Program-made: the position numbers and the translations under genes
Notes under the pieces: generated by a model
Told to the model about the DNA's origin: nothing
Seen by the model: only the letters and a program-made list of their open reading frames with translations
Databases searched by the model: none
Shown here: positions 1,388-63,420 of the stretch, piece by piece
Numbering within the stretch: position 1 is the stretch's first letter
Layout of the letters: each line of letters begins with the position of its first letter
Source: Ischnura elegans
Taxonomy: Eukaryota > Arthropoda > Insecta > Odonata > Coenagrionidae
Direction: 5' to 3'
Assembly (NCBI RefSeq): GCF_921293095.1
Contig: NC_060254.1
Coordinates: 58,264,069 to 58,328,068, forward strand
DNA length: 64,000 nucleotides

Positions 1388-2322
1388 AGAACATATGTAT
1401 CAATATTTCCAATACTTTTAATTGTACACTTTCTTTCCCCAGTAGTACCTGTATTCATCCATAGGTGCTAATTCCAACTTCTATCATCGTGTGAATGTTC
1501 ATGTTTTTACTGTGCCTTATGTCCTTATACTAATTTCCTCACAGTCAGTATCTATCAATAAATCAGATTATCTATTACGAGACATACGGGTAATAGTAAA
1601 GTACCTAGGGCTGTTTTATGGTACATCATTTCAAATTTTCTTCCGTAATGTAATTATTTACAAATATTTAATCCTATCAATACCTATTTATTCCTATTTA
1701 TACCTATTTATTCCCATAATCGCTATTTATTCCTTTTATTTATTGCAATTCTACTGTTCATATTTAATCTTTATTCAAATCTTGTAAGCCTTTATTTTAT
1801 TCCTATATCTTCTTATGGCTTATAGAATTTTAAGTTAAAATGTTTTAACTTGAGAGTTATCTTTTTTTGTCAAAACCAAACTCAAATATCATTGTTAATA
1901 TCTTTCATTTTAATTGTTTTACCAAAATTTAAGTAGTACACTCAGTTTTATGCTTCAAACTTTTTCTAACATTTATGAATTGACCACATTTTTAAAATGT
2001 TTTGACTGAATTAAACTAATGAGTATTTGTTTCTATGATAATTTTTCAAGTACTAGAGCAATGGTGGCCTGAAATATCTCTGACAAAGGTGACGGATGGG
2101 AGTTAACATTTTCACCAGCTACCACCTCCTGACTTGGCTCATCAGCAGAACACACGAAATAAAACCTGGCCTGCGTGCCGGTTACCTAAGCTGATGCTAT
2201 ATATTAAACTAAAGTAAACCTGACTGAAACTCTGTAAAAGAGCCCTGGCCCGGGGGAAGAGGGGGCCGGATTGTGGCCTCACCCGGGCCAGGTAAAATAA
2301 AAAGCTAAAACAAACAAACAAA
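1388..2322 (+). mobile_element. 3' UTR and tail of the same LINE, with terminal hairpin
   Basis: AT-rich DNA without coding frames follows the reverse transcriptase stop. Near its end a GC-rich stem-loop has perfect 11-bp arms (CCTGGCCCGGG at 2244-2254 and its complement at 2282-2292). It is followed by AATAAA-like and AAAC repeats (2293-2322). A 3' hairpin followed by a short A-rich microsatellite is the usual template-recognition end of CR1/L2-type LINEs, so I end the element here. The 3' UTR is long and its middle part could contain other material. Confidence 0.6.
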
Positions 2323-2730
2323 CCTCCTCCACTTTCTTCTACCTCCTCCACTTCCTTCTACCTCCTCCACTTCCTTCTACCTCCTCCACTTTCTTCTTCC
2401 TCCTTCACTTCCTTCTACCTCCTCCACTTTCTTCTACATCCTCCACTTCCTTCTACCTCCTCCACTTCTTTCTACGTCCTCCAATTCCTTCTACCTCCTC
2501 CACTTCCTTCTACCTCCTCCACTTCCTTCTACCTCCTCCCCTTCCTTCTACCTCCTCCACTACCTTCTACCTCCTCCACTTCCTTCTACGTCCTCCACTT
2601 CCTTCTACCTCCTCCACTTCCTTCTACCTCCTCCACTTCCTTCTCTTTCCTCTTCTTCTTCTCCCTCCTCCTCTTCCTACTCAATCCTCCACTTCCATCT
2701 CTCTCCTCAACTTCCATCTCCCTCCTCAAC

Positions 2731-3678
2731 TTGCTTCTACCTCCTCCACTTCCTTCTACCTCCTCCACTTTCTTCTTCCTCCTTCACTTCCTTCTACCTC
2801 CTTCACTTCCTTCTATCTCCTCCACTTTCTTCTACCTCCTCCACTTCCTTCTACCTCCTTCACTTCCTTCTATCTCCTCCACTTGCTTCTACCTCCTCCA
2901 CTTCCTTCTACCTCCTCCACTTTCTTCTTCCTCCTTCACTTCCTTCTACCTCCTCCACTTTCTTCTACATCCTCCACTTCCTTCTACCTCCTCCACTTCC
3001 TTCTACCTCCTCCCCTTCCTTCTACCTCCTCCACTACCTTCTACGTCCTCCACTTCCTTCTACCTCCTCCACTTCCTTCTGACTCCTCCACTTCCTTCTC
3101 TTTCCTCTTCTTCCTTCTCCCTCCTCCCCTTTATTCTCTTTCCTCTTCATATTCTCCCTCCTCCTCTTCCTACTCAATCCTCCACTTCCATCTCACTCCT
3201 CAACTTGCTTCTACCTCCTCCACTTCCTTCTACCTCCTCCACTTTCTTCTTCCTCCTTCACTTCCTTCTACCTCCTTCACTTCCTTCTATCTCCTCCACT
3301 TTCTTCTACCTCCTCCACTTCCTTCTACCTCCTTCACTTCCTTCTATCTCCTCCACTTGCTTCTACCTCCTCCACTTCCTTCTACCTCCTCCACTTTCTT
3401 CTTCCTCCTTCACTTCCTTCTACCTCCTCCACTTTCTTCTACATCCTCCACTTCCTTCTACCTCCTCCACTTCCTTCTACCTCCTCCCCTTCCTTCTACC
3501 TCCTCCACTACCTTCTACGTCCTCCACTTCCTTCTACCTCCTCCACTTCCTTCTGACTCCTCCACTTCCTTCTCTTTCCTCTTCTTCCTTCTCCCTCCTC
3601 CCCTTTATTCTCTTTCCTCTTCATATTCTCCCTCCTCCTCTTCCTACTCAATCCTCCACTTCCATCTCACTCCTCAAC
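2731..3678. repeat. Higher-order duplication inside the minisatellite (two 474-bp blocks)
   Basis: 2731-3204 and 3205-3678 are near-identical blocks of about 25 units each. They share the same order of variant units, including the TTTATTCTCTTTCC and CCTACTCAATCC variants. Part of the same order is visible again in 2366-2728. This is segmental amplification of a multi-unit block on top of the 19-bp tandem growth. Confidence 0.9.
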
Positions 3679-5330
3679 TTCCTTCTACCTCCTTCACTTC
3701 CTTCAGCCTCCTCCACTTATTTCTACCTCCTCCACTTGCTTCTACCTCCTCCACTTCCTTCTACCTCCTCCACTTCCTTCTACCTCCTCCACTTCCTTCT
3801 ACCTCCTCCACTTCCTTCTACGTCCTCCACTTCCTTCTACCTCCTCCACTTCCTTCTACCTCCTCCACTTTCTTCTACCTCATCCACTTCCTTCTACCTC
3901 CTCCACTTCCTTCTACGTCCTCCACTTCCTTCTACCTCCTTCACTTCCTTCTACCTCCTCCACTTTCTTCTACCTCCTTCACTTCCTTCTACCTCCTCCA
4001 CTTCCTTCTACCTCCTCCACTTCCCTCTACCTCCTCCCCTTCCTTCTACCTCCTCCACTTCCTTCTACGTCCTCCACTTCCTTCTACGTCCTCCACTTTC
4101 TTCTACCTCCTCCACTTCCTTCTACCTCCTTCATTTCCTTCTACCTCCTCCACTTTCTTCTACCTCCTCCACTTCCTTCTACCCCCTCCACTTCCTTCTG
4201 CCTCCTCCACTTATTTCTACCTCCTCCACTTGCTTCTACCTCCTCCACTTCCTTCTACCTCCTCCACTTCCTTCTACCTCCTCCACTTCCTTCTACCTCC
4301 TCCACTTCCTTCTACGTCCTCCACTTCCTTCTACCTCCTCCACTTCCTTCTACCTCCTCCACTTTCTTCTACCTCCTCCACTTCCTTCTGCCTCCTCCAC
4401 TTCCTTCTACGTCCTCCACTTCCTTCTACCTCCTTCACTTCCTTCTACCTCCTCCACTTCCTTCTACCTCCTCCACTTCCTTCTACCTCCTCCACTTCCT
4501 TCTACCTCCTCCACTTCCTTCTACCTCCTGCCCTTCCTTCTACCTCCTCCACTTCTTTCTACCTCCTCCACTTCCTTCTACGTCCTCCACTTCCTTCTAC
4601 CTCCTCCACTTCCTTCTACCTCCTCCACTTTCTTCTACCTCCTCCACTTCCTTCTACCTCCTCCACTTCCTTCTACGTCCTCCACTTCCTTCTACCTCCT
4701 TCACTTCCTTCTACCTCCTCCACTTTCTTCTACCTCCTCCACTTCCTTCTACCTCCTCCACTTTCTTCTACCTCCTTCACTTCCTTCTACCTCCTCCACT
4801 TCCTTCTACCTCCTCCACTTCCTTCTACCTCCTCCACTTCCTTCTACCTCCTCCACTTCCTTCTACCTCCTCCACTTCCTTCTACCTCCTCCACTTCCTT
4901 CTACGTCCTCCACTTTCTTCTACCTCCTTCACTTCCTTCTACCTCCTCCACTTTCTTCTACCTCCTCCACTTTCTTCTACCTCCTCCACTTTCTTCTACC
5001 TCCTTCACTTCCTTCTACCTCCTCCACTTCCTTCTACCTCCTCCACTTCCTTCTACGTCCTCCACTTCCTTCTACCTCCTTCACTTCTTTCTACCTCCTC
5101 CACTTCCTTCTACCTCCTCCACTTCCATCTACCTCCTCCACTTCCTTCTACCTCCTCCACTTCCTTCTACCTCCTCCACTTCCTTCTACCTCCTCCACTT
5201 CCTTCTACCTCCTCCACTTCCTTCTACGTCCTCCACTTCCTTCTACCTCCTCCACTTCCTTCTACCTCCTCACCTTCCTTCTCCCTCCTGCATTTCCTTC
5301 TCCCTCTTCCCATTCCTTCTCCCTCCTCCA

Positions 5331-6390
5331 CTTCCTTCTCCAACCTCCCCTTCTTCTCCCTCCTCCCCTTCCTTCTCTTTCCTCCATTTCCTTCTACCTC
5401 CACCACTTCCTTCTACCTCCTTCATTTCCTTCTCCCTCCTCTCCTTCTTTCTCCCTCCTCCAATTCCGTCTTCCTCCTCCACTTCATTCACCTCCTCCAC
5501 TTTGTTCTACCTCCTCCAATTCCTTCTACCTCCTCCACTTCCTTCTACGTCCTCAACTTGCTTCTACCTCCTCCACTTCATTCTACCTCCTCCACTTCCT
5601 TCTACCTGCTCCACTTCCTTCTACGTCCTCCACTTTCTTCTACCTCCTTCACTTCCTTCTACCTCCTCCACTTTCTTCTACCTCCTCCACTTTCTTCTGC
5701 CTCCTCCACTTATTTCTACCTCCTCCACTTCCTTCTGACTCCTCCACTTCCTTCTACCTCCTACCCTTGCTTCTACCTCCACCCCTTCCTTCTCCCTCCT
5801 CCAATTCCTTCTCCCTCCTCCCCTTCCTTCTCCAACCTCCCCTTCTTCTCCCTCCTCCCCTTCCTTCTCTTTCCTCCATTTCCTTCTACCTCCTTCACTT
5901 CCTTCTACCTCCTCCACTTCCTTCTACCTCCTCTACTTCCTTCGACCTCCTCCACTTGCTTCTACCTCCTTTACTTCCTACTACCTCCTCCACTTCCTTC
6001 TGCCTCTTCCCCTTCCTTCTACCTACTCCACTTCCTTCTGCCTTCTCCCTTTCCTTCTACCTCCTCCACTTCCTTTTACCTCCTCCACGTCCTTCTACCT
6101 CCTCCACTTCCTTCTACCTCCTCCCCTTCCTTCTGGCTCCACCCCTTCCTTCTCCCTCCTCCATTCATTCTCCCTCCTCCCCTTCCTTCTCCAACCTCCC
6201 CTTCTTCTCCCTCCTCCCCTTCCTTCTCTTTCCTCCATTTCCTTCTACCTCCTCCACTTCCTTCTACATCCTCCATTTCCTTCTCCCTCCTCTCCTTTTT
6301 TCTCCCTCCTCCAATTCAGTCTTCCTCCTCCACTTCATTCACCTCCTCCACTTTGTTCTACCTCCTCCAATTCCATCTACCTCCTCCACT
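5331..6390. repeat. Second higher-order block in the distal minisatellite
   Basis: A variant run containing CTTCTCCAACCTCCCC then TTTCCTCCATTTCC starts at 5331, 5823 and 6182. The 5331 and 6182 copies continue in parallel for about 200 bp, including the AATTCNGTCTTCC variant and the CACTTCATTCACC variant (5461-5530 and 6312-6380). The distal array was therefore also amplified in multi-unit blocks. Confidence 0.8.
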
Positions 6391-6610
6391 TCCTTAAACC
6401 TTTTCCACCTCCTTCTGCCTCCTCCACTTCCTTCTGCCTCCTCCACTTATTTCTACCTCCTCCACTTCCTTCTGACTCCTCCACTTCCTTCTACGTCCTC
6501 CACTTCCTTATTCCTTCTCCAATTCCTGCTTCCTCCAATTCCTTCTACCTCCTCCACTTCCTTCTACCTCCTCAACTTTCTTCTATCTCCTCCACTACTC
6601 TCTATCTCTT

Positions 6611-6839
6611 ACTCAACCTGTCGCGAATCAACCTTCTGAAATCCACGTTTGCCGTTTACGCTATACACATAGTCATCCATTCCTACTGCGTTCAAAGTTG
6701 AACCGCTTCAGCATAGCAATAGCACTGAATTACGCGTTATGTATAGCGAATTCCTAGCTTGAGGCCCTTCCCAATGACCCCATGATCGTCCTCGCCACTG
6801 AGATTCCGGAAGAGGGCGTTAGAACATTCAAGGGAGGCC
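6611..6839. other. No recognised feature
   Basis: Mixed-composition DNA between the end of the minisatellite and the 316-bp duplication. I see no gene, RNA or terminal repeats. Confidence 0.5.
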
Positions 6840-12153: not shown

Positions 12154-12155
12154 TT

Positions 12156-12227
12156 TGGAGATGCCGGGGATCGAACCCGGGACCTTTCACATGCAAAGCG
12201 AACGCTCTACCACTGAGCTACATCCCC
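12156..12227 (-). tRNA. tRNA-Ala (anticodon TGC)
   Basis: The minus strand reads a 72-nt cloverleaf. The acceptor stem is GGGGATG with CATCTCC (one G-T pair) and discriminator A. The D arm is TAGCTCAGTGGTAGAGC, a normal A box. The anticodon stem TTCGC/GTGAA closes the 7-nt loop TTTGCAT, giving anticodon TGC. The T arm CCGGGTTCGATCCCCGG is a perfect B box and stem. No intron. All stems pair, and it closely resembles insect tRNA-Ala as I know it. The CCA end is not encoded. It decodes GCA and wobble alanine codons in cytosolic translation. Confidence 0.95.
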
Positions 12228-12900
12228 ATTTATTTAATGACAATCATCTGCAAGAAGACTTCATAGAGGAGTGCCAGTTCCATCACACAGAAGGCTGATT
12301 TCTGTTGCCACTTCGGTCGCATTTTAATTGGCTTTCAAAAATGCCGGCGGCGAGGTTATGAGCGCAATGCGATCCACTTTTTTCAAAATATTTTGCATTA
12401 TAATGATTGTCATTGCGAGGAATAGCATTGAATAGTTATGAATTTGATAAATCACACAATCATAAATGTAAATTTTGGTTGACATCCCTAATTATTCCTT
12501 ATTTCCCCGTGAAATTCGGATCAATTTGTCCGTCAGCGACGTGAGTGGCGACTTTTGCAAACCCATTTAAACGCGTGGTGGATGACAACGCATTTAGAGA
12601 CCGACTCGAGGATCCTCTTTCGTAATATTCGTGATCATGTATTTCATGCCGAGTCGACGCGTGGGCGAAAAATCATTAGTGGGGAAGTAAGCGTGGAGTG
12701 ATGATGGCATAATGTTGCGCGGTGGTGGAGGGAAGGGGGGAGGAGTCTGGAGGGGATGAGGAGGGTTGAGACGAGATTCCAGAGGGGAAAAAGAGGTCTC
12801 GGTCGTCCGAATTGCAAGCAGACAAGAGTGGAATTGGGTCACACCCCGGAACATGACGGACAATCTCGAACTGGGGTCGCCTCTCTTCCCATACATATTT
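12228..12900. other. No recognised feature
   Basis: The minus-strand frame at 12594-12998 has proline-rich low-complexity sequence from a G-rich stretch near 12720-12760 and runs into the repeat at 12901. No motif supports a gene. Confidence 0.45.
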
Positions 12901-14750: not shown

Positions 14751-14892
14751 TTAGTCGTCCTCAGCGTCCATATTTCCCCACTATAAAGCATTAGAATGCT
14801 ACACATCAGGCTCTTCTTTGCTCTCTTACACAACGATCCTCTCATCAGTTCTTTTCTATTCATGAAAACCTTCTTAGTAGACGAAATACTTT

Positions 14893-15510
14893 CTACATCT
14901 ACATAATACCCTGCGAGCCATCTCTATGGTGTTTGGCATGGGGGTGACCAATCACCAACATGCAGCATGCAAGAGGACCGTCACATGCACACCGCACGGT
15001 CATAGAAATATTACGCATACTAACAAAATATAGATGCATAATCATAGAAAAACTTGCTAATGGTTATTAATTCCTAGAGCTAATACATGCAAGGTTAGAA
15101 CTATGGAAAAAAACATGCAATGAGTCATCCTAGCGAGTGACGCCATTAATCCTATCAATTGAGACAACGTTCCTATCCTTAATAGTACGAGGGAAGAATG
15201 ATATTTTAAATCTCTCTGTTTTGCAGTCTATTTCTTTTATTTTCTTACCATGATCACGTCTACCATAGTACGACGGTAATCGAAGGATATGATTCACGTC
15301 GTCTTAGAAAATATCTTCTTCGAATTTACAGAGTAAATTAAGCCTACACTACTATCTACGCTCCAGTAAAGATTCACATCCTAACTCGTGCAACATACTG
15401 GAAACGCTACACTTTTTGTCGTAACAACTCATCACAAGTCTGGCCGCCTTTCGCTGTACTCGACTGATTTCTGCTATCAGTCCTACTTCATTAGGGTCCC
15501 CTACGTTAGC
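14893..15510 (-). pseudogene. LINE 3' end, decayed copy of the 62768-63420 element
   Basis: Aligns along its length with 62768-63396: shared 3' box at 14893-14948, CCAATCACCAACATGCAGCATG, GAGTCATCCTAGCGAGTGACG, and the coding part that in the other copy encodes LHELGW. The frame is broken here. 3' end at 14893. Confidence 0.85.
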
Positions 15511-15569
15511 AGCATATGATTCACGTCGTAATGCTCATGCTTTCCTGATGCTCATCATTCGATAGGTAT

Positions 15570-35060: not shown

Positions 35061-35142
35061 GGGGGGCACAACTAGCCGTGGTCGTTCAGTTGCAACTTTT
35101 TTGCACAGAAAAGGCTAACGAAACCAAAATTTTAGGGAAATA

Positions 35143-35794
35143 GGGTAGTTTCCTTCATCAAAGAAAACGAAAGGCATTGATTGCGATTCGTTACCCACCA
35201 TTAGTGTATTCATAATACACAAATTATTTGGTTTTTGAATAGACGAATGGCAAGGGTCAAATTTTATCCTCATTTGAAAAAGGCCAGATTGGCGCCCATG
35301 CGATTCCACTCCGCATGACGTCACAGGGACCTAGTTTCTACACGAGAGGATAGGAGTTATACATCGTCTGAGGTTACCAATGCATGCATGAGGCACAGAG
35401 CTCAGGGAAACATGTCTTAATAATCACCTATTAAAACTGGCTAAGTTCGGAAAGTTTTCTTCGTTTGATAAGGTATTAATAAACCTTTTTTAAGCCAAGC
35501 GCTACCATTCAGCAAGGTACTCAGCTATCCGCTAGCATCCTGCGACGTATCAGCGCTAAGCCTCGCCTCAAGGTCACCTCACCGGGCGGGAGGGGGAACC
35601 AGAAATACGACGTACGGAGATATTTCCCGGCATTCATACTTAAGCGTCGCGTTTTCGCGCGCTTGAAAGTTTTCACTTTTCATTTAATCGCGAAAAATAG
35701 ATGTTGTCATTTAAAAATCTAAAAGCGTGAAATACGTACTCCAGGAGTAATAATCTTTCGATTAAAGCAATAAAAAAATAACAGGAAACCACCC
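35143..35794 (-). mobile_element. Tc1/mariner-like non-autonomous element, copy 1
   Basis: 652 bp between TA dinucleotides. Ends GGGTAGTTTCC and GGAAACCACCC. Parallel over its whole length, in inverse orientation, to 39865-40518 and 56736-57395. Contains one TGACGTCA at 35316; the second site is mutated in this copy. No transposase frame. Confidence 0.82.
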
Positions 35795-35939
35795 TATTAT
35801 GATAGCAATTTATTAGTTTTTATAATTATTTGCTTGAAAATATAATGATTTTGATTTTAGTTCCATGTCTTATGCTAATATCATTTTTCTTCAAAAGGAA
35901 AAATTGTTCATAACTTTTGTTTTGAACTAAATTTATTTT

Positions 35940-39860: not shown

Positions 39861-39864
39861 TATA

Positions 39865-40518
39865 GGATGGTTTCCTATTATTTTTTTTTACTAATTCGAA
39901 AGATTATTACTCCTGGAGTACGCATTTCACGCTTTTAGATTTTTAAATGACGATATCTATTTTCCGCGATTGAATGAAAAGCAAAAATTTAAAACGCGCG
40001 AAAACCAGACCTATAAGTATGAATGCTGGGAAAAGCCCGTGTGACGTCATTCTGGTTCCCGCTGCCGCCATATGAGGCCACCTTGGGGCGAGGCTCTGAG
40101 CGCCGATACAATGCAGGCTGCTTCCAGGCAGCAGTACCCTGCTATCAGGTGGCGCTTGGCTTAAATAAGGACTATTAATACCCTATCAAACGAAGGAAAC
40201 TTTCCGACCATAGGCAATTTTAATAGTTGATTATTAAGAAATATTTCCCTGAGCTCTGTGCCACATGCATGCATTGGTAATCTCAGACGATGTAAAACTC
40301 CTGACTACTCGTATAGCATCTAGGTCCCTGTGACGTCACGTGGAGTGGCATCGCATGGCCGCCAATCTGGCCCTTTGAAATGAGGTTAAAATTGACCATT
40401 AACATTCGTCTAAACTGGGATTTCTAAAACAAAATAATTTTTATATTATGAATACACTAATGGAGGTTAACGAATCGCAATCAATGCCTTTCGTTTTCTT
40501 TGATGAACGAGACTACCC
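39865..40518 (+). mobile_element. Tc1/mariner-like non-autonomous element, copy 2
   Basis: 654 bp between TA dinucleotides, ends GGATGGTTTCC and CTACCC. Two perfect TGACGTCA octamers at 40042-40049 and 40331-40338, the second running into CACGTG. Inserted at the end of a LINE remnant. Confidence 0.84.
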
Positions 40519-41145
40519 TATTGCAGCGCCGCAGGCGCGATGAAGCTGTCCCGGTGAACCATGTTCACCCTAACCAGCCAGTTGACAATTGAATTTATAT
40601 TGTGCGCGAGTGTTTGTGTAATGTGGGTAGCGTTATGTTTTTGTGAGCAGAAACTTAAAGCTAATAATTTAGTTGAACTTTGCAAAAGCAATTTTTTATC
40701 AACATATATATTTACCTTTTTATCTACTTTTTTTTATCATAATTTTTTTTGTTTTGTTGTTATTTTTTCCTATTAGCCTTTTTTTCTTTTCTTTTTCAAA
40801 TGCGGATATTTTGGTGAAATTAAACAACAAACACCTTATGATTGTGCTTGCTTATTCTACAAGAAGGAGAGAGTCTTAGGCGAGTAACTTTTTAAGGCAG
40901 CTTGTGTGTAGTTGGAATTGCAGGGTATAGCCTGGACTTAACGAGGTGTATTTTTACTCAACTTGAAGGAGCAGTATGTGTTCGACCAGGAAAGTTTTTC
41001 TTTCCGCGGTGTTGTGAAGAGAGGAAAGGTGAGAGCTATTATCTGTGAACCACGTTAAGAGATCACTGATTTCAGATTTGGGATTTGCAGATGAATTGAT
41101 TGATGTGAGCATTTAAATACTAGTCGATCGGAGAATTAATTTGAA
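40519..41145. other. No supported gene
   Basis: The frames at 40561-40879 are T-rich and hydrophobic by composition. Nothing recognisable. Confidence 0.4.
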
Positions 41146-50960: not shown

Positions 50961-52539
50961 CATTTTGATTTCGGGGCTTGGTGAACGACCCCATTTGTGA
51001 AAGCTTGAAAAAAAAGAAACAAATTTTAAGTAATGCCTTTCATAGATTCAACACCTACATTGAATTCTATTGAAAAGTAACTTATTGAGGTAAAAATATT
51101 AAATTATACGTTTCACTCATTCATTAATGCATATTGTTTTAATCTTAGGATTTGTTAACTCTATCTATAATTTTCCCCCTCTTCCTTTACTAATATTAGT
51201 TTACTGATGTTTATCGTGGTTGTGTCCTTCCTTATCTGCCCCATGTTTTTATTTCCTCGTCTTTTCTCGAGGTCTTTTCCCTCGATTTTTCTCTTCATCA
51301 TATTTCTCACGCTCTTACCGAGTGTTGTGACATTGCCTATTGACCGGGTCCTTCTCTGCCATACGGCTCCCTACCATACCATTTCTTCTCTCCTTATCCT
51401 CGTGTATCTCCGACTATGTTCAAAGGTTAAACTTTACATCTCATTATTAATAATTACTAAGTTATGGAGGTAACATATATTCGTAGTTGTCTCAATTTCT
51501 CAAGGAGGTTGGATCATTTAAAACAAGAGACTTTAACAGTTAAGGTAACGTTTCAGAATAATTACGAACAATTTCAGAGATATAAGGGATATCGGATAAC
51601 TTCTGAGATAAAAGGGATATCAGATATCTTCTGAAATATAAGGGATATCGGATATCTTCTGAGATATCATATTTCTTTTCTCATTCTATCCCTCCATGCA
51701 ACCTTCGGCAACCTTCTACTGCAGTATGTCTTCTATCCTTTTTGAAATATTTTTTTTACATTTATCCATGTTTCTTGTTCAAGTTGAATGCTAATACCAC
51801 GCTACTTTTGATTTACATTGACGAACCGAACTCAAGCCGCCTTAATAGGGATATGGCAGGGAGTTTTAACACACCAACCATTTTCATAAAGTAACCCTAA
51901 ATTGCTCGCTTTCTTAGATGATTTAAAAAAATAAAATAACGTCGTTAGAAATCAGAGTTTTTTATAGTCTTATTATTTCTTATAATTCTACCTGAGTAAA
52001 GTTGGATTTTCAAAGTATTGCTTAGTTTCGCTGCTACCGATGTTTTGACCCGTCGCGACCGTGGGCGTATCAGATTTTTTCTGTCTTTAACCCGATTCTT
52101 TATTCTGTTTTAGTCATATATATAAGTCGGTTTTATATATCAGTCTGATTTCTTCAAATGTTGTGAAGCTCAATATATTTCCCTTTTTTTTATAAAATTC
52201 ATGTTTCTATGCATAAGTTCTCTGCATAAATATTGATACCGTTTTCTATTCAGCGGCTAGAGTTTATCTAATGTTTATTGTATATCTAACAGCAAGTTTA
52301 ACAATAAAAATATATGAAACTTATTCGATAAACTTACTTAGGGAGTAGCAGTAAAATGACACCAATGTATTTACAAAAATATTTATACACTCAAATCGGA
52401 TCACAAAGACCCAACGCGACCAGTTACGTAGGTTTTGAGGTGCGTCCATTTATGGGTTAAAATAAGTTCAGCGTGAATTATGTTTGACTACCGAATCGTT
52501 TTGCCTTCGCGACGGCACTATCTTCAGCATCGCGTCTAG
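50961..52539. other. No supported gene; 28-bp triplication at 51577-51660
   Basis: GAGATATAAGGGATATCGGA and following bases repeat three times at 28-bp spacing (51577, 51605, 51633). The 88-residue frame at 51207-51473 is leucine- and phenylalanine-rich without known family. Confidence 0.5.
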
Positions 52540-52544
52540 ATACG

Positions 52545-53146
52545 TGTTGAAGTTAATGAATTAATCGATTGATAAATTAAATTAATAGAAAAAAAGCAAA
52601 AGGGTTGTCAAGGGTTAACAGTTGTTTATAAGTTACGGATAAAAATCGTCAGTCAAACAGACAACAACAACGAGTATAATGAAGGAATAATAACATCATT
52701 ATTTATGTTAATACTGTGTCTAATAGTTATTTATGGAGCAAGAGAAGAACTAAATCCTAAAGGTTATGGGCCCAGCACGCTTCCACCGATATCTTCGATT
52801 GAAGATATTGAGCTCTAAAATGGGTCTTTTCTAAATGAATGAATCCAAGAGTTGTATTGTTGATTAATTAAGAAAGGAAAGAGTCTGAGTAATTGTTTGA
52901 TCGACATGTTTTTTTAATCAACAAAGGAAAGTGTTGAAGTTCATGAATTAATGGATTGCTAATTTAAATTAATAGCAATAAGCAAATGGGTTGCCACGGG
53001 TTAACAGTTGTTGATTAGTTACCGGATAAAAACCATAAGTCAAAGAGGCAACAACGACGTGCATCATTAAAGATTAATTAGATCATTATTTACGTTAATA
53101 CTGCGTCTATTAGTTATTTATGGAGCAAGAGAAGAACTAAAACCCT
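52545..53146 (+). mobile_element. Miniature copia-class LTR element (TRIM-like)
   Basis: Two direct repeats of about 215 bp (52545-52759 and 52932-53146) both begin TGTTGAAGTT, a copia-style LTR start, and end in GAAGAACTAAA.CCTA. Directly after the first is GGTTATGGGCCCAGCAC (52762 on), the complement of the anticodon arm of initiator tRNA-Met; complementarity continues for 25 bases to 52786. This is the half-tRNA primer site known from Drosophila copia. Directly before the second repeat is a purine tract AAAGGAAAG (52923-52931). Only about 170 bp lies between, with no gag-pol, so the element is non-autonomous. LTR 3' ends are not the usual CA and the 5-bp duplication is uncertain (ATACG against ATAAC). 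Confidence 0.85.
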
Positions 53147-53149
53147 ATA

Positions 53150-53500
53150 ACGCGTCGCTAGGAGGCGTCTAGCTTTTGGTTGTGGGCAGCATCCTCCAAT
53201 GGTCTCCTTCCTATGATGGCACCCTGGGGGGTTCTCTCTCCCAATACTCCACCCCTCCCCTCTGCTTCCTCCGCAGCTATTCTTAGTTGGCGCGGTTATG
53301 TGAATGCCTCCCTCCAATCCTCGCACCCATCTGCTCCTCTGGCCCATTCCTCCTCTGCGAATGAGCTGTGCCGTTCGTGAGTGAGCCGTTAATTACGAAC
53401 GATTCCCTGTCGTGGACCGAATGAGTGGAATCGCCGTTTTCGTTTCAAATGGCTCTTTGTGCATTAAATTGGTCACGTGAATCATTTCGGACCTGTGGCT
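53150..53500. other. No supported gene
   Basis: A pyrimidine tract ending in CCTCCGCAG near 53276 looks like a splice acceptor, but no convincing exon follows. Confidence 0.35.
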
Positions 53501-56590: not shown

Positions 56591-56735
56591 ATGAGTTATT
56601 ATAATCATTTCATTTTATATTCATTAATGTAGCTAATGATAAAAAAATGATAAATTTTTGCTCATTGATTTAATATAAAGATTAGCGACCAATCACGGCT
56701 ATTTCTTTTCGAAATTCACTCTTTTCGCCGATATA

Positions 56736-57395
56736 GGGTGGTATCCTATAATTTTTTTATTGTCTAAATAGAAATTTTATTACTCCTGGAGTACGCAATT
56801 CACGCTTATAGATTTTTACTTGACGATATCTATTTTTCACTATTAAATGAAAAGGGAAAATTTACATGCGCACGAAAACGCGACGGCTAAGTATGAATGC
56901 TGGGAAAAGCCCGTGTGACGTCATTCTGGTTCCCGATGCCGCCGTTTGAGGTGACTTTGGGGCGAGGATATCACGCCGATGCGATGCAGGCTGCTAGCAG
57001 AAAGCAGAGTACCCTACCAGCAGGTAGCGCTTGCCTTAAATAAGGATTATTATTACCTTATCAAACGAAGGAAACTTTCCGACCTTAGGACAGTTTTAAT
57101 AGGTGATTATTAAGAGATGTTTCCCTGAGCTCAGTGCCTCATGCGTGCATTGTTAATCTCAAACGATGTAAAACTCCTATCTACTCGTATAGAAACTAGG
57201 TCCCTGTGACGTCACGTGGAGTGGCATCGCATGGCCGCCAATCTGGCCTTTTTCAAATGAGGTTAAAATTGACCATTAACATTCGTCTGAACTGGGATTT
57301 CTAAAACCAAATAATTTGTACATTTTGAATGCACTAATGGTGGGTAACGAATCGCAATCAATGCCTTTCGTTTTCTTTGATGAAGAAAACTACCC
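56736..57395 (+). mobile_element. Tc1/mariner-like non-autonomous element, copy 3
   Basis: 660 bp between TA dinucleotides; ends GGGTGGTATCC and CTACCC. Two perfect TGACGTCA octamers (56916-56923, 57207-57214) at the same places as in copy 2. Confidence 0.84.
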
Positions 57396-58700
57396 TATTG
57401 TGAGCCCACCAGGAAGGTCGAATTAAGTTTGAGAACGATAAGGAAGCAATAACGTGTGCGGGAATGTGATGACGACGTCGCCATTCATACTCCCATAGAC
57501 TTATTCGCTCGTAGGAGATGAATTGCGGACGCTTGTTCCAGTTTTGCAACACGAGTCAGCGATAGCGATTACGATTGGGCAGCGCAGTGACTCTCCCCTC
57601 TCCTATTCGGGGTCAGAGCCGCGCAGCCGAGCAACAATCCAAGATCGTCCGGAGGGCTCTGATTGGCCGATGAGACGGAGGCGAAAGTGCGTCACACAGT
57701 TGGAGAGATTAAAGAATGAACGCAAGGAAGATGTGCGTCGCCATTATTGGAGAAAAGGGAGAATGGAGTGGTTTTTGCGTCTCGTATGATGAAGAGGCGC
57801 TCTATCGCGACTGTATTCGACACTGAAATCACCGGTGGCAGCGCTGAAGGCGCAGACGTCAGTTTCCAACATGGCCGACGCATCGAGGATAGGGTTGTTA
57901 TGAAAACAATGGTGTAATGGGATTAATCGTCGGGTTACTGAGAAAAATAAAGAAGAAATTGTCCAGAAAGATTTTTCTTGGTTTAGTTGAGGTATTTTGA
58001 TAGCTAGGGACAATGGCAAATAGCACTAAAGACTCAGGGTGTAATAAATTTTAGCACAAATATTCGCTACATCTTCATGGAGATTACTCAAGGGGTTCCT
58101 AATGACCATAAATGCCAGACTCTGATAAAAAACTCTGTTTTAGCAGTAGAAAAGAAAAAGTGTGACTCGTTGGTTAGCTTAAAATCCGCAAACGTACAGA
58201 GCACCGTCACAGTAATGTAGCAATTGTAGCAATGAATGGCTACTAAAGGGCACTATAAATAAATATGATTACATAAAATTTATTACTTACGACGGTATGA
58301 TAGCTCAATACCAAAAAGATAGCAATATAAAAAAATAAATTCCCAACAATGCCAATGATTTGTCAACGTGGTATGTTTCCTACAGTTGGTATTCTCGGTA
58401 CTTTGTATCCTTGGACCTTCACCTCCGAATTCGGCCGATAGTTGGCGTCTCATCTATTTGGAATTTCGAATAGAGTTGGAAATATTGCTTCACGACATTG
58501 ACGACTCCTTCGCCGTCTGCGGAAACGTCAGTAATGAAAATCACTTGATTTCAATTTTACTTGTTCACGAGGGAGAACGATCTCCTATGACAATTAACGA
58601 ACTACCGTAACGGAAGAGACATCTAACGGCCATTGCCGCGTTAATGACCTCGGTTCTATTGGAAATTCGATGCTCATATTTTAAAACTCGGATGGTGATC
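57396..58700. other. No supported gene; GC-richer patch 57480-57900
   Basis: 57580-57680 has CCAAT-type and GC-rich strings, and AACATGGCCGACGC at about 57868 looks like a start or YY1/Pho site but is followed by a stop after ten codons. The 80-residue frame at 58368-58610 has no known motif. Confidence 0.4.
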
Positions 58701-62280: not shown

Positions 62281-62767
62281 TCCATTATATATTTAATTTA
62301 TTTTTCACACACAGCCGTGTCGCCAATTTACAGTGAATTTTTTTAAACAATAACGTCAATTAGACACAATACAATAACAATATAAAAACTAGCAATTAAT
62401 TAACCAGTAGGGAAATTAAAACATTCAATTGGCTGATAGATGGGACATAGCTTGAGCGGTGAATTTCTTGCATGACAGATAATAAGAATCGGTGGAAGTA
62501 GGGAGCGAATTTAGAAGGGAGGAGAGGCGATATAAAGGTGAGAATTGTTATGTTATATTATGTTTCCTACGTAACTGCTGTCTTATTACGCGGTCAATAC
62601 ACATACGCGGTTTTTTGGTGTACAGTGACCCATAATGGCCTTTCTTCTCCTACCTCTTCTATATCCCTCCTCGTTTCCCACCCTATTTGTTCATTTTATC
62701 TTCATCAACCTCCTCCAGCAACATATCACGAAGGCCTCTACTCTTTTATGATCATTTTCTCAATGAT
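62281..62767. other. No recognised feature
   Basis: Nothing identified. The 112-residue frame starting at 62538 runs into the LINE box. Confidence 0.4.
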
Positions 62768-63420
62768 CTACGTCTACATAATACCCTGCGAGCCACCTCT
62801 AGGGTGTATGGCAGGGGGTGACCAATCACCAACATGCAGCATGGAGGACCGCCTTATGCACACCGCACGGTCATAGAAATATTACGCATGCTAGCAAAAT
62901 TTACATGCATATTCATAAAAAAAACTTGCAAATAGTTTGCAATTCCTAGAGCAAATACATGAAAGGTTAGAACTATGGATAAAAACATGTAATGAGTCAT
63001 CCTAGCGAGTGACGCCATTAATCCTATTAATTGAGACACCATTCCTATCCTTAATAGTACGAGGGAATAATGACATTTTAAATCCCTCTGTTTTGCTGTA
63101 TATTTCTTTTATTTTCTTCTCATGATCACGTCTACCATAGCACGACGGTAAACGAAGGATATGATTCACGTCGTCTGAGAAAATATCTTCTTCGAATTTA
63201 CTAAGTAAATAAAGCCTATACTTCGATCTACGCTCCTGTAAAGATTCCCATCCTAACTCATGTAACTTACTGGAAACGCTGCACTTTTTGTCGTAGCAAC
63301 TCATCACAAGTCTGGCCGCCTTTCGCTGTATTCGATTAATTTCAGCTATCAGTCCTACTTCATAAGGGTCCAACACGCTAGCAGCACATTCGAAGTGAAG
63401 CCTCACTGGAGGCAGGTAGC
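62768..63420 (-). pseudogene. LINE 3' end (CR1/Jockey group) with conserved 3' box
   Basis: The minus-strand frame 63406-63002 encodes EINRIQRKAARLVMSCYDKK, SSKLHELGWESLQERRSKYR, DHEKKIKEIYSKTEGFKMSL, FPRTIKDRNGVSINRI. The AARLV...L..LGW..L..RR....L...FPRTI.dwN pattern is the C-terminus of LINE reverse transcriptase ORFs. The 3' UTR runs to the box CTACGTCTACATAATACCCT (62768), whose complement is the RNA 3' end. Frame open over 134 residues, 5' truncated. Older copy at 14893-15510. Confidence 0.85.

Follow-up and report, generated by a model that had tools for sequence, protein, structure and literature searches.

Two direct repeats lying close together in a 64,000-nucleotide stretch of Ischnura elegans DNA (the window) raise the question of whether they bound a miniature LTR retroelement and, if so, whose enzymes copied it. 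The repeats (5′ LTR at 52545–52759, 3′ LTR at 52932–53147) are 86.4% identical, with a K2P distance of 0.149; their alignment has 214 columns with 29 differences (10 transitions and 19 transversions) and 3 gap columns. The pair was recovered with E 1e-63 in a self-comparison of the 64-kb window that left out positions 2300–6700, and again by a repeat finder, as three ungapped pieces. A 19-bp minisatellite (225.6 copies, 87% matches) occupies 2322–6596 and opens spurious frames of up to 1302 aa. The whole element measures 603 bp, with LTRs of 215 and 216 bp and an interior of 172 bp (52760–52931), and is laid out as follows.

52540..52544, no strand: candidate left target-site duplication ATACG, one insertion away from ATAACG at 53147–53152
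52545..52759, + strand: 5′ LTR, 215 bp, beginning TGTTG, 27% GC
52762..52786, + strand: primer binding site complementary to initiator tRNA-Met (23 bases, 52762–52784, against nt 17–39 of the human tRNA; 25 bases if nt 16 is T)
52787..52810, + strand: hairpin immediately downstream of the primer site, from the minimum-energy fold of the whole interior
52870..52883, + strand: second purine run, within 52864–52884, a stretch 86% like the PPT/LTR junction
52923..52931, + strand: polypurine tract (PPT) AAAGGAAAG, adjoining the 3′ LTR
52932..53147, + strand: 3′ LTR, 216 bp (end at 53146 with ATAACG as the duplication)
53147..53152, no strand: candidate right target-site duplication ATAACG, imperfect partner of ATACG

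The inner border of the 3′ LTR is sharply marked, in that the nine purines of the PPT end exactly where the LTR starts, against a background in which nine purines precede 421 of 63,800 window positions (0.66%). The outer borders are less regular. The target-site duplication is imperfect, and a match within one edit is expected in 0.5% of random pairs with one fixed end and a 6-base right side, a figure that rises to 10% when four ends and lengths of 4–6 are allowed; the 3′ terminus of the LTR reads CCTA or CCT rather than the usual CA. Within the interior, the 21 bases at 52864–52884 could represent a duplicated PPT region, a possibility that rests on a weak likeness, its local score being matched or beaten by 6 of 1000 base-shuffled pairs. 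The order in which the LTR pair, the primer site and the PPT are arranged, and the borders at which they lie, are those of an LTR retroelement, with which coincidence does not seriously compete as an explanation. The earlier note had described two LTRs of about 215 bp, a purine tract and only about 170 bp in between, all of which measurement bears out; of its span, 52545–53146, the start stands and the end becomes 53146 or 53147.

The primer binding site begins two bases after the 5′ LTR, and its first 23 bases (52762–52784) are exactly complementary to nt 17–39 of human initiator tRNA-Met, in the sequence printed in PMC8216282. A site for the 3′ end of tRNA-iMet is absent (9 of 18 positions matched), and human elongator tRNA-Met and tRNA-Lys, also compared, have at most 5 bases in common with the primer site. 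The match grows to 25 bases, reaching 52786, if nt 16 of the tRNA is T, as we take it to be in the initiator tRNA-Met of insects; the 25-base interior match claimed earlier is therefore exact over 23 bases against the human molecule and hinges on T16 for its full length. The predicted duplex of the primer site with the 39-nt 5′ half of the tRNA has an energy of −53.1 kcal/mol. With up to one mismatch allowed, the 14-base core of the site occurs once in the window, against 0.02 occurrences expected, and no other stretch of the 64 kb matches initiator tRNA-Met over 12 or more bases in either sense. The sole tRNA that ARAGORN or Rfam finds in the window is a tRNA-Ala (TGC) gene on the minus strand at 12155–12228, scoring 70.4 bits in Rfam.

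The decayed LTRs indicate that the insertion is old. With the rates given in PMC3532108 for Drosophila (1.6e-8) and for ants (0.54e-8), K/(2r) yields an insertion age of about 4.7 or 14 million years, respectively, figures that indicate scale only. Decay amounts to about 7.5% per LTR, and at this level about 14% of neutral copies would still show an undamaged 25-base site by chance. The intact primer site was therefore rejected as evidence of selection, and it does not show that the half-tRNA signal has been kept by parasites of copia elements.

No gene is recognisable in the element. Stop-to-stop pieces of the interior reach 36 aa at most over the six frames, and four of the five interior pieces of at least 20 aa have no Pfam match; the fifth matched DUF6385 at E 0.084, far below the cut-off, and this was taken as chance. 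An 80-aa open stretch that starts within the 5′ LTR and continues into the interior (52576–52818) is likewise without a Pfam match. At the RNA level, the predicted fold of the interior is only moderately better than that of shuffled sequences (z = −2.06; 7 of 200 shuffles as good) and includes the hairpin at 52787–52810, with a 10-bp stem containing one G-U pair and a 4-base loop. Because of the G-U pair, this hairpin escaped a search restricted to perfect stems of 9 bp; to assign it a function in the leader or in packaging would be guesswork. Strong structure of the whole element was rejected (z = −1.71; 2 of 20 shuffles as good).

The reading that we favor, and consider rather likely, is that the locus holds a non-autonomous LTR retroelement, in an old and inactive copy, with the size and anatomy of a TRIM, whose replication would have depended on an element of the Copia superfamily. 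TRIMs are delimited in PMC6934838 as shorter than 1000 bp with terminal direct repeats of 100–250 bp, limits within which 603 bp and repeats of 215/216 bp fall. The layout is also that of a TRIM, with primer site and PPT lying at the inner ends of the 5′ and 3′ repeats, respectively, as is the lack of coding capacity (interior pieces of at most 36 aa, and the 80-aa stretch unmatched in Pfam). The link to Copia comes from the half-tRNA primer site (tRNA-iMet nt 17–39). In the plant survey as given in PMC6317226, half-molecule primers occur exclusively in Ty1/copia elements, so that a Copia element is, by analogy with plants, fungi and Drosophila, the most likely source of the enzymes that copied the present element. 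Most plant Copia groups use the 3′ end of tRNA-Met (PMC6317226), as the metazoan GalEa elements are also described as doing, and this end is not matched here. The 5-bp duplication typical of Copia would correspond here at best to the imperfect pair ATACG/ATAACG. Four observations count against this explanation, namely, the single copy in 64 kb, the imperfect duplication, an LTR 3′ end other than CA, and an uninformative LTR length.

Under this Copia-dependent scheme, transcription would start in the 5′ LTR, and the RNA would be packaged by the Gag of a copia element. Initiator tRNA-Met, cleaved after nt 39, would then supply its 5′ half for annealing to 52762–52786, minus-strand synthesis would follow, the plus strand would be primed at the PPT, and copia integrase would insert the element with a 5-bp duplication.

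The alternative that survives best, possible though somewhat doubtful, is that a full-length Copia element underwent a private internal deletion after insertion, its LTRs, leader and PPT being what is left over, in which case there would be no miniature family. The age of the copy (K2P 0.149) would have allowed time for deletions, and the duplicated PPT-like stretch hints, weakly, at internal rearrangement. LTR length, normal for an animal Copia element, cannot separate a TRIM from a full element, given that shrimp CoRex1, a full Copia element, has 217-bp LTRs (PMC3587641). Against a private deletion, nothing in the 172 bp is recognisable as gag or pol, remnants of which a random deletion would often leave, although the point is weak because short, old pieces could escape Pfam. 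Outside the element, no Copia domain was detected by Pfam in 15 chosen window frames (5 searched at E 0.001 and 10 at E 0.1). The only Pfam hit among these frames was an RVT_1 domain (E 1.2e-35) in a 448-aa frame at 41–1387, which probably derives from a non-LTR retrotransposon.

Copy number also bears on a private deletion, which the single copy in the window favors: with the element as query and E up to 10, no third copy was found in the 64 kb, other matches extending over at most 37 bases (28.3 bits). Neither the 23-mer of the primer site nor a 28-base U5 stretch matched viral contigs, and the 23-mer had no match in bacterial and archaeal contigs, in both cases collections without host DNA and therefore silent on copy number. 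A single viral match to a 17-mer of the primer site lies at a predicted tRNA-Met gene, one of 19 tRNA genes predicted there, and does not belong to a retroelement. The self-comparison revealed a window rich in interspersed repeats of other kinds. One of about 670 bp is a dispersed family within the window, with three copies (35139–35797, 39861–40523 and 56732–57400) that are 83–87% identical, the first inverted with respect to the other two; another, of about 627 bp, has two copies (14892–15517 and 62767–63389) that are 90% identical. With these repeats and the RVT_1 frame the window has the look of animal DNA, and the repeat content together with the T16 variant would point more narrowly to an arthropod.

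An improbable alternative is a TRIM of another sort, either with a small-RNA promoter in its LTR, as in Helenus, Ajax and Cassandra, or dependent on Gypsy. Animal precedents lend it some credit, in that animal Helenus families use tRNA 3′ ends and are linked to Gypsy (PMC10886601). The harvester-ant PbTRIM is similar to the present element in being animal, 480–781 bp long, with LTRs of 152–184 bp, a primer site and a PPT and no coding capacity; in contrast, it has a tRNA-Leu primer site, 4-bp AT-rich duplications and many demonstrated copies (all PMC3532108). The present site instead fits tRNA-iMet over 23 nt, and fits its interior rather than its 3′ end. Neither ARAGORN nor Rfam (to E = 5) found a tRNA-like stretch in the LTRs, and no tRNA or 5S family appears among the four Rfam matches to E = 5 in 52400–53300, although decay could hide such a stretch and a decayed promoter could escape. 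On this basis, the element appears to be neither a Helenus nor an Ajax or Cassandra. Considered separately, the idea that the LTR contains a pol III promoter found no support, all four matches scoring far below the gathering thresholds.

Lastly, that the locus is no retroelement at all, being a local duplication whose spacer imitates primer site and PPT by accident, is hardly credible: the repeat-rich window has many direct repeats, but here 23 bases that match a tRNA exactly lie at the border of one repeat, and a run of purines ends precisely where the other begins.

How far a Copia-dependent miniature element would be new was judged against known systems. Among autonomous elements, Drosophila copia shares half-tRNA priming with the present element and differs in coding for gag-pol, which is lacking here. 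Priming of copia by a half-tRNA is documented in PMC5371799. The primer of copia is specifically the 5′ half of tRNA-iMet, as the earlier note held, cut after nt 39, and its primer site is shorter than that of the present element.

Among gene-less elements, half-tRNA priming had been put forward earlier as new, a claim that gives way to a published case: priming by half of tRNA-iMet is described for the Helenus TRIMs of fungi (Kojima 2024, PMC10886601, section 3.6). These elements are similar to the present one in being gene-less LTR elements, Copia-linked and flanked by 5-bp duplications, and differ in carrying a tRNA-like sequence in their LTRs (PMC10886601), of which none was detected here; moreover, the Helenus elements described there with this primer are fungal, whereas the present element is animal. 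The best-known TRIMs being from plants was likewise offered as a point of novelty and cannot serve as one, since animal TRIMs have been reported from hymenopterans (bees and ants, the harvester ant of PMC3532108 among them), from taeniid tapeworms and from bivalves, the last in PMC6934838. The bivalve biv-TRIMs, some of which also have hairpins in the interior, include two species with similarity to the middle of tRNA-Tyr immediately downstream of the 5′ repeat (PMC6934838). The tRNA involved is tRNA-Tyr rather than tRNA-iMet, and a canonical primer site was not identifiable to the authors; even so, an interior-tRNA site in an animal TRIM is at least hinted at by this similarity, the closest such hint among the accounts of animal TRIMs consulted.

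Likeness to TRIMs of plants extends to size, anatomy and the use of tRNA-Met. Plant TRIM sites match the 3′ end of that tRNA. They comprise 12–18 nt complementary to tRNA-Met (PMC3532108), whereas the present site fits the interior.

The element is, in sum, probably another TRIM of an already known sort. A Copia-dependent TRIM primed by half of tRNA-iMet could still be new for an animal, none having been described in the open-access literature among the matches listed. We also propose, tentatively and with slightly less than even confidence, that the locus belongs to a dispersed animal TRIM family moved by Copia, with a 25-nt half-tRNA-iMet site reaching the D loop, which would be to animals what the Helenus elements with a half-tRNA primer are to fungi.

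Taken as one old locus, the element is ordinary. If it belongs to a family, animals would gain a miniature element that depends on Copia and is primed by a half-tRNA, and the pattern seen in fungi, in which TRIMs ride on Copia with a half-tRNA primer, would have an animal counterpart. Such a family would also offer a minimal natural substrate for asking which cis sequences copia-type machinery needs.
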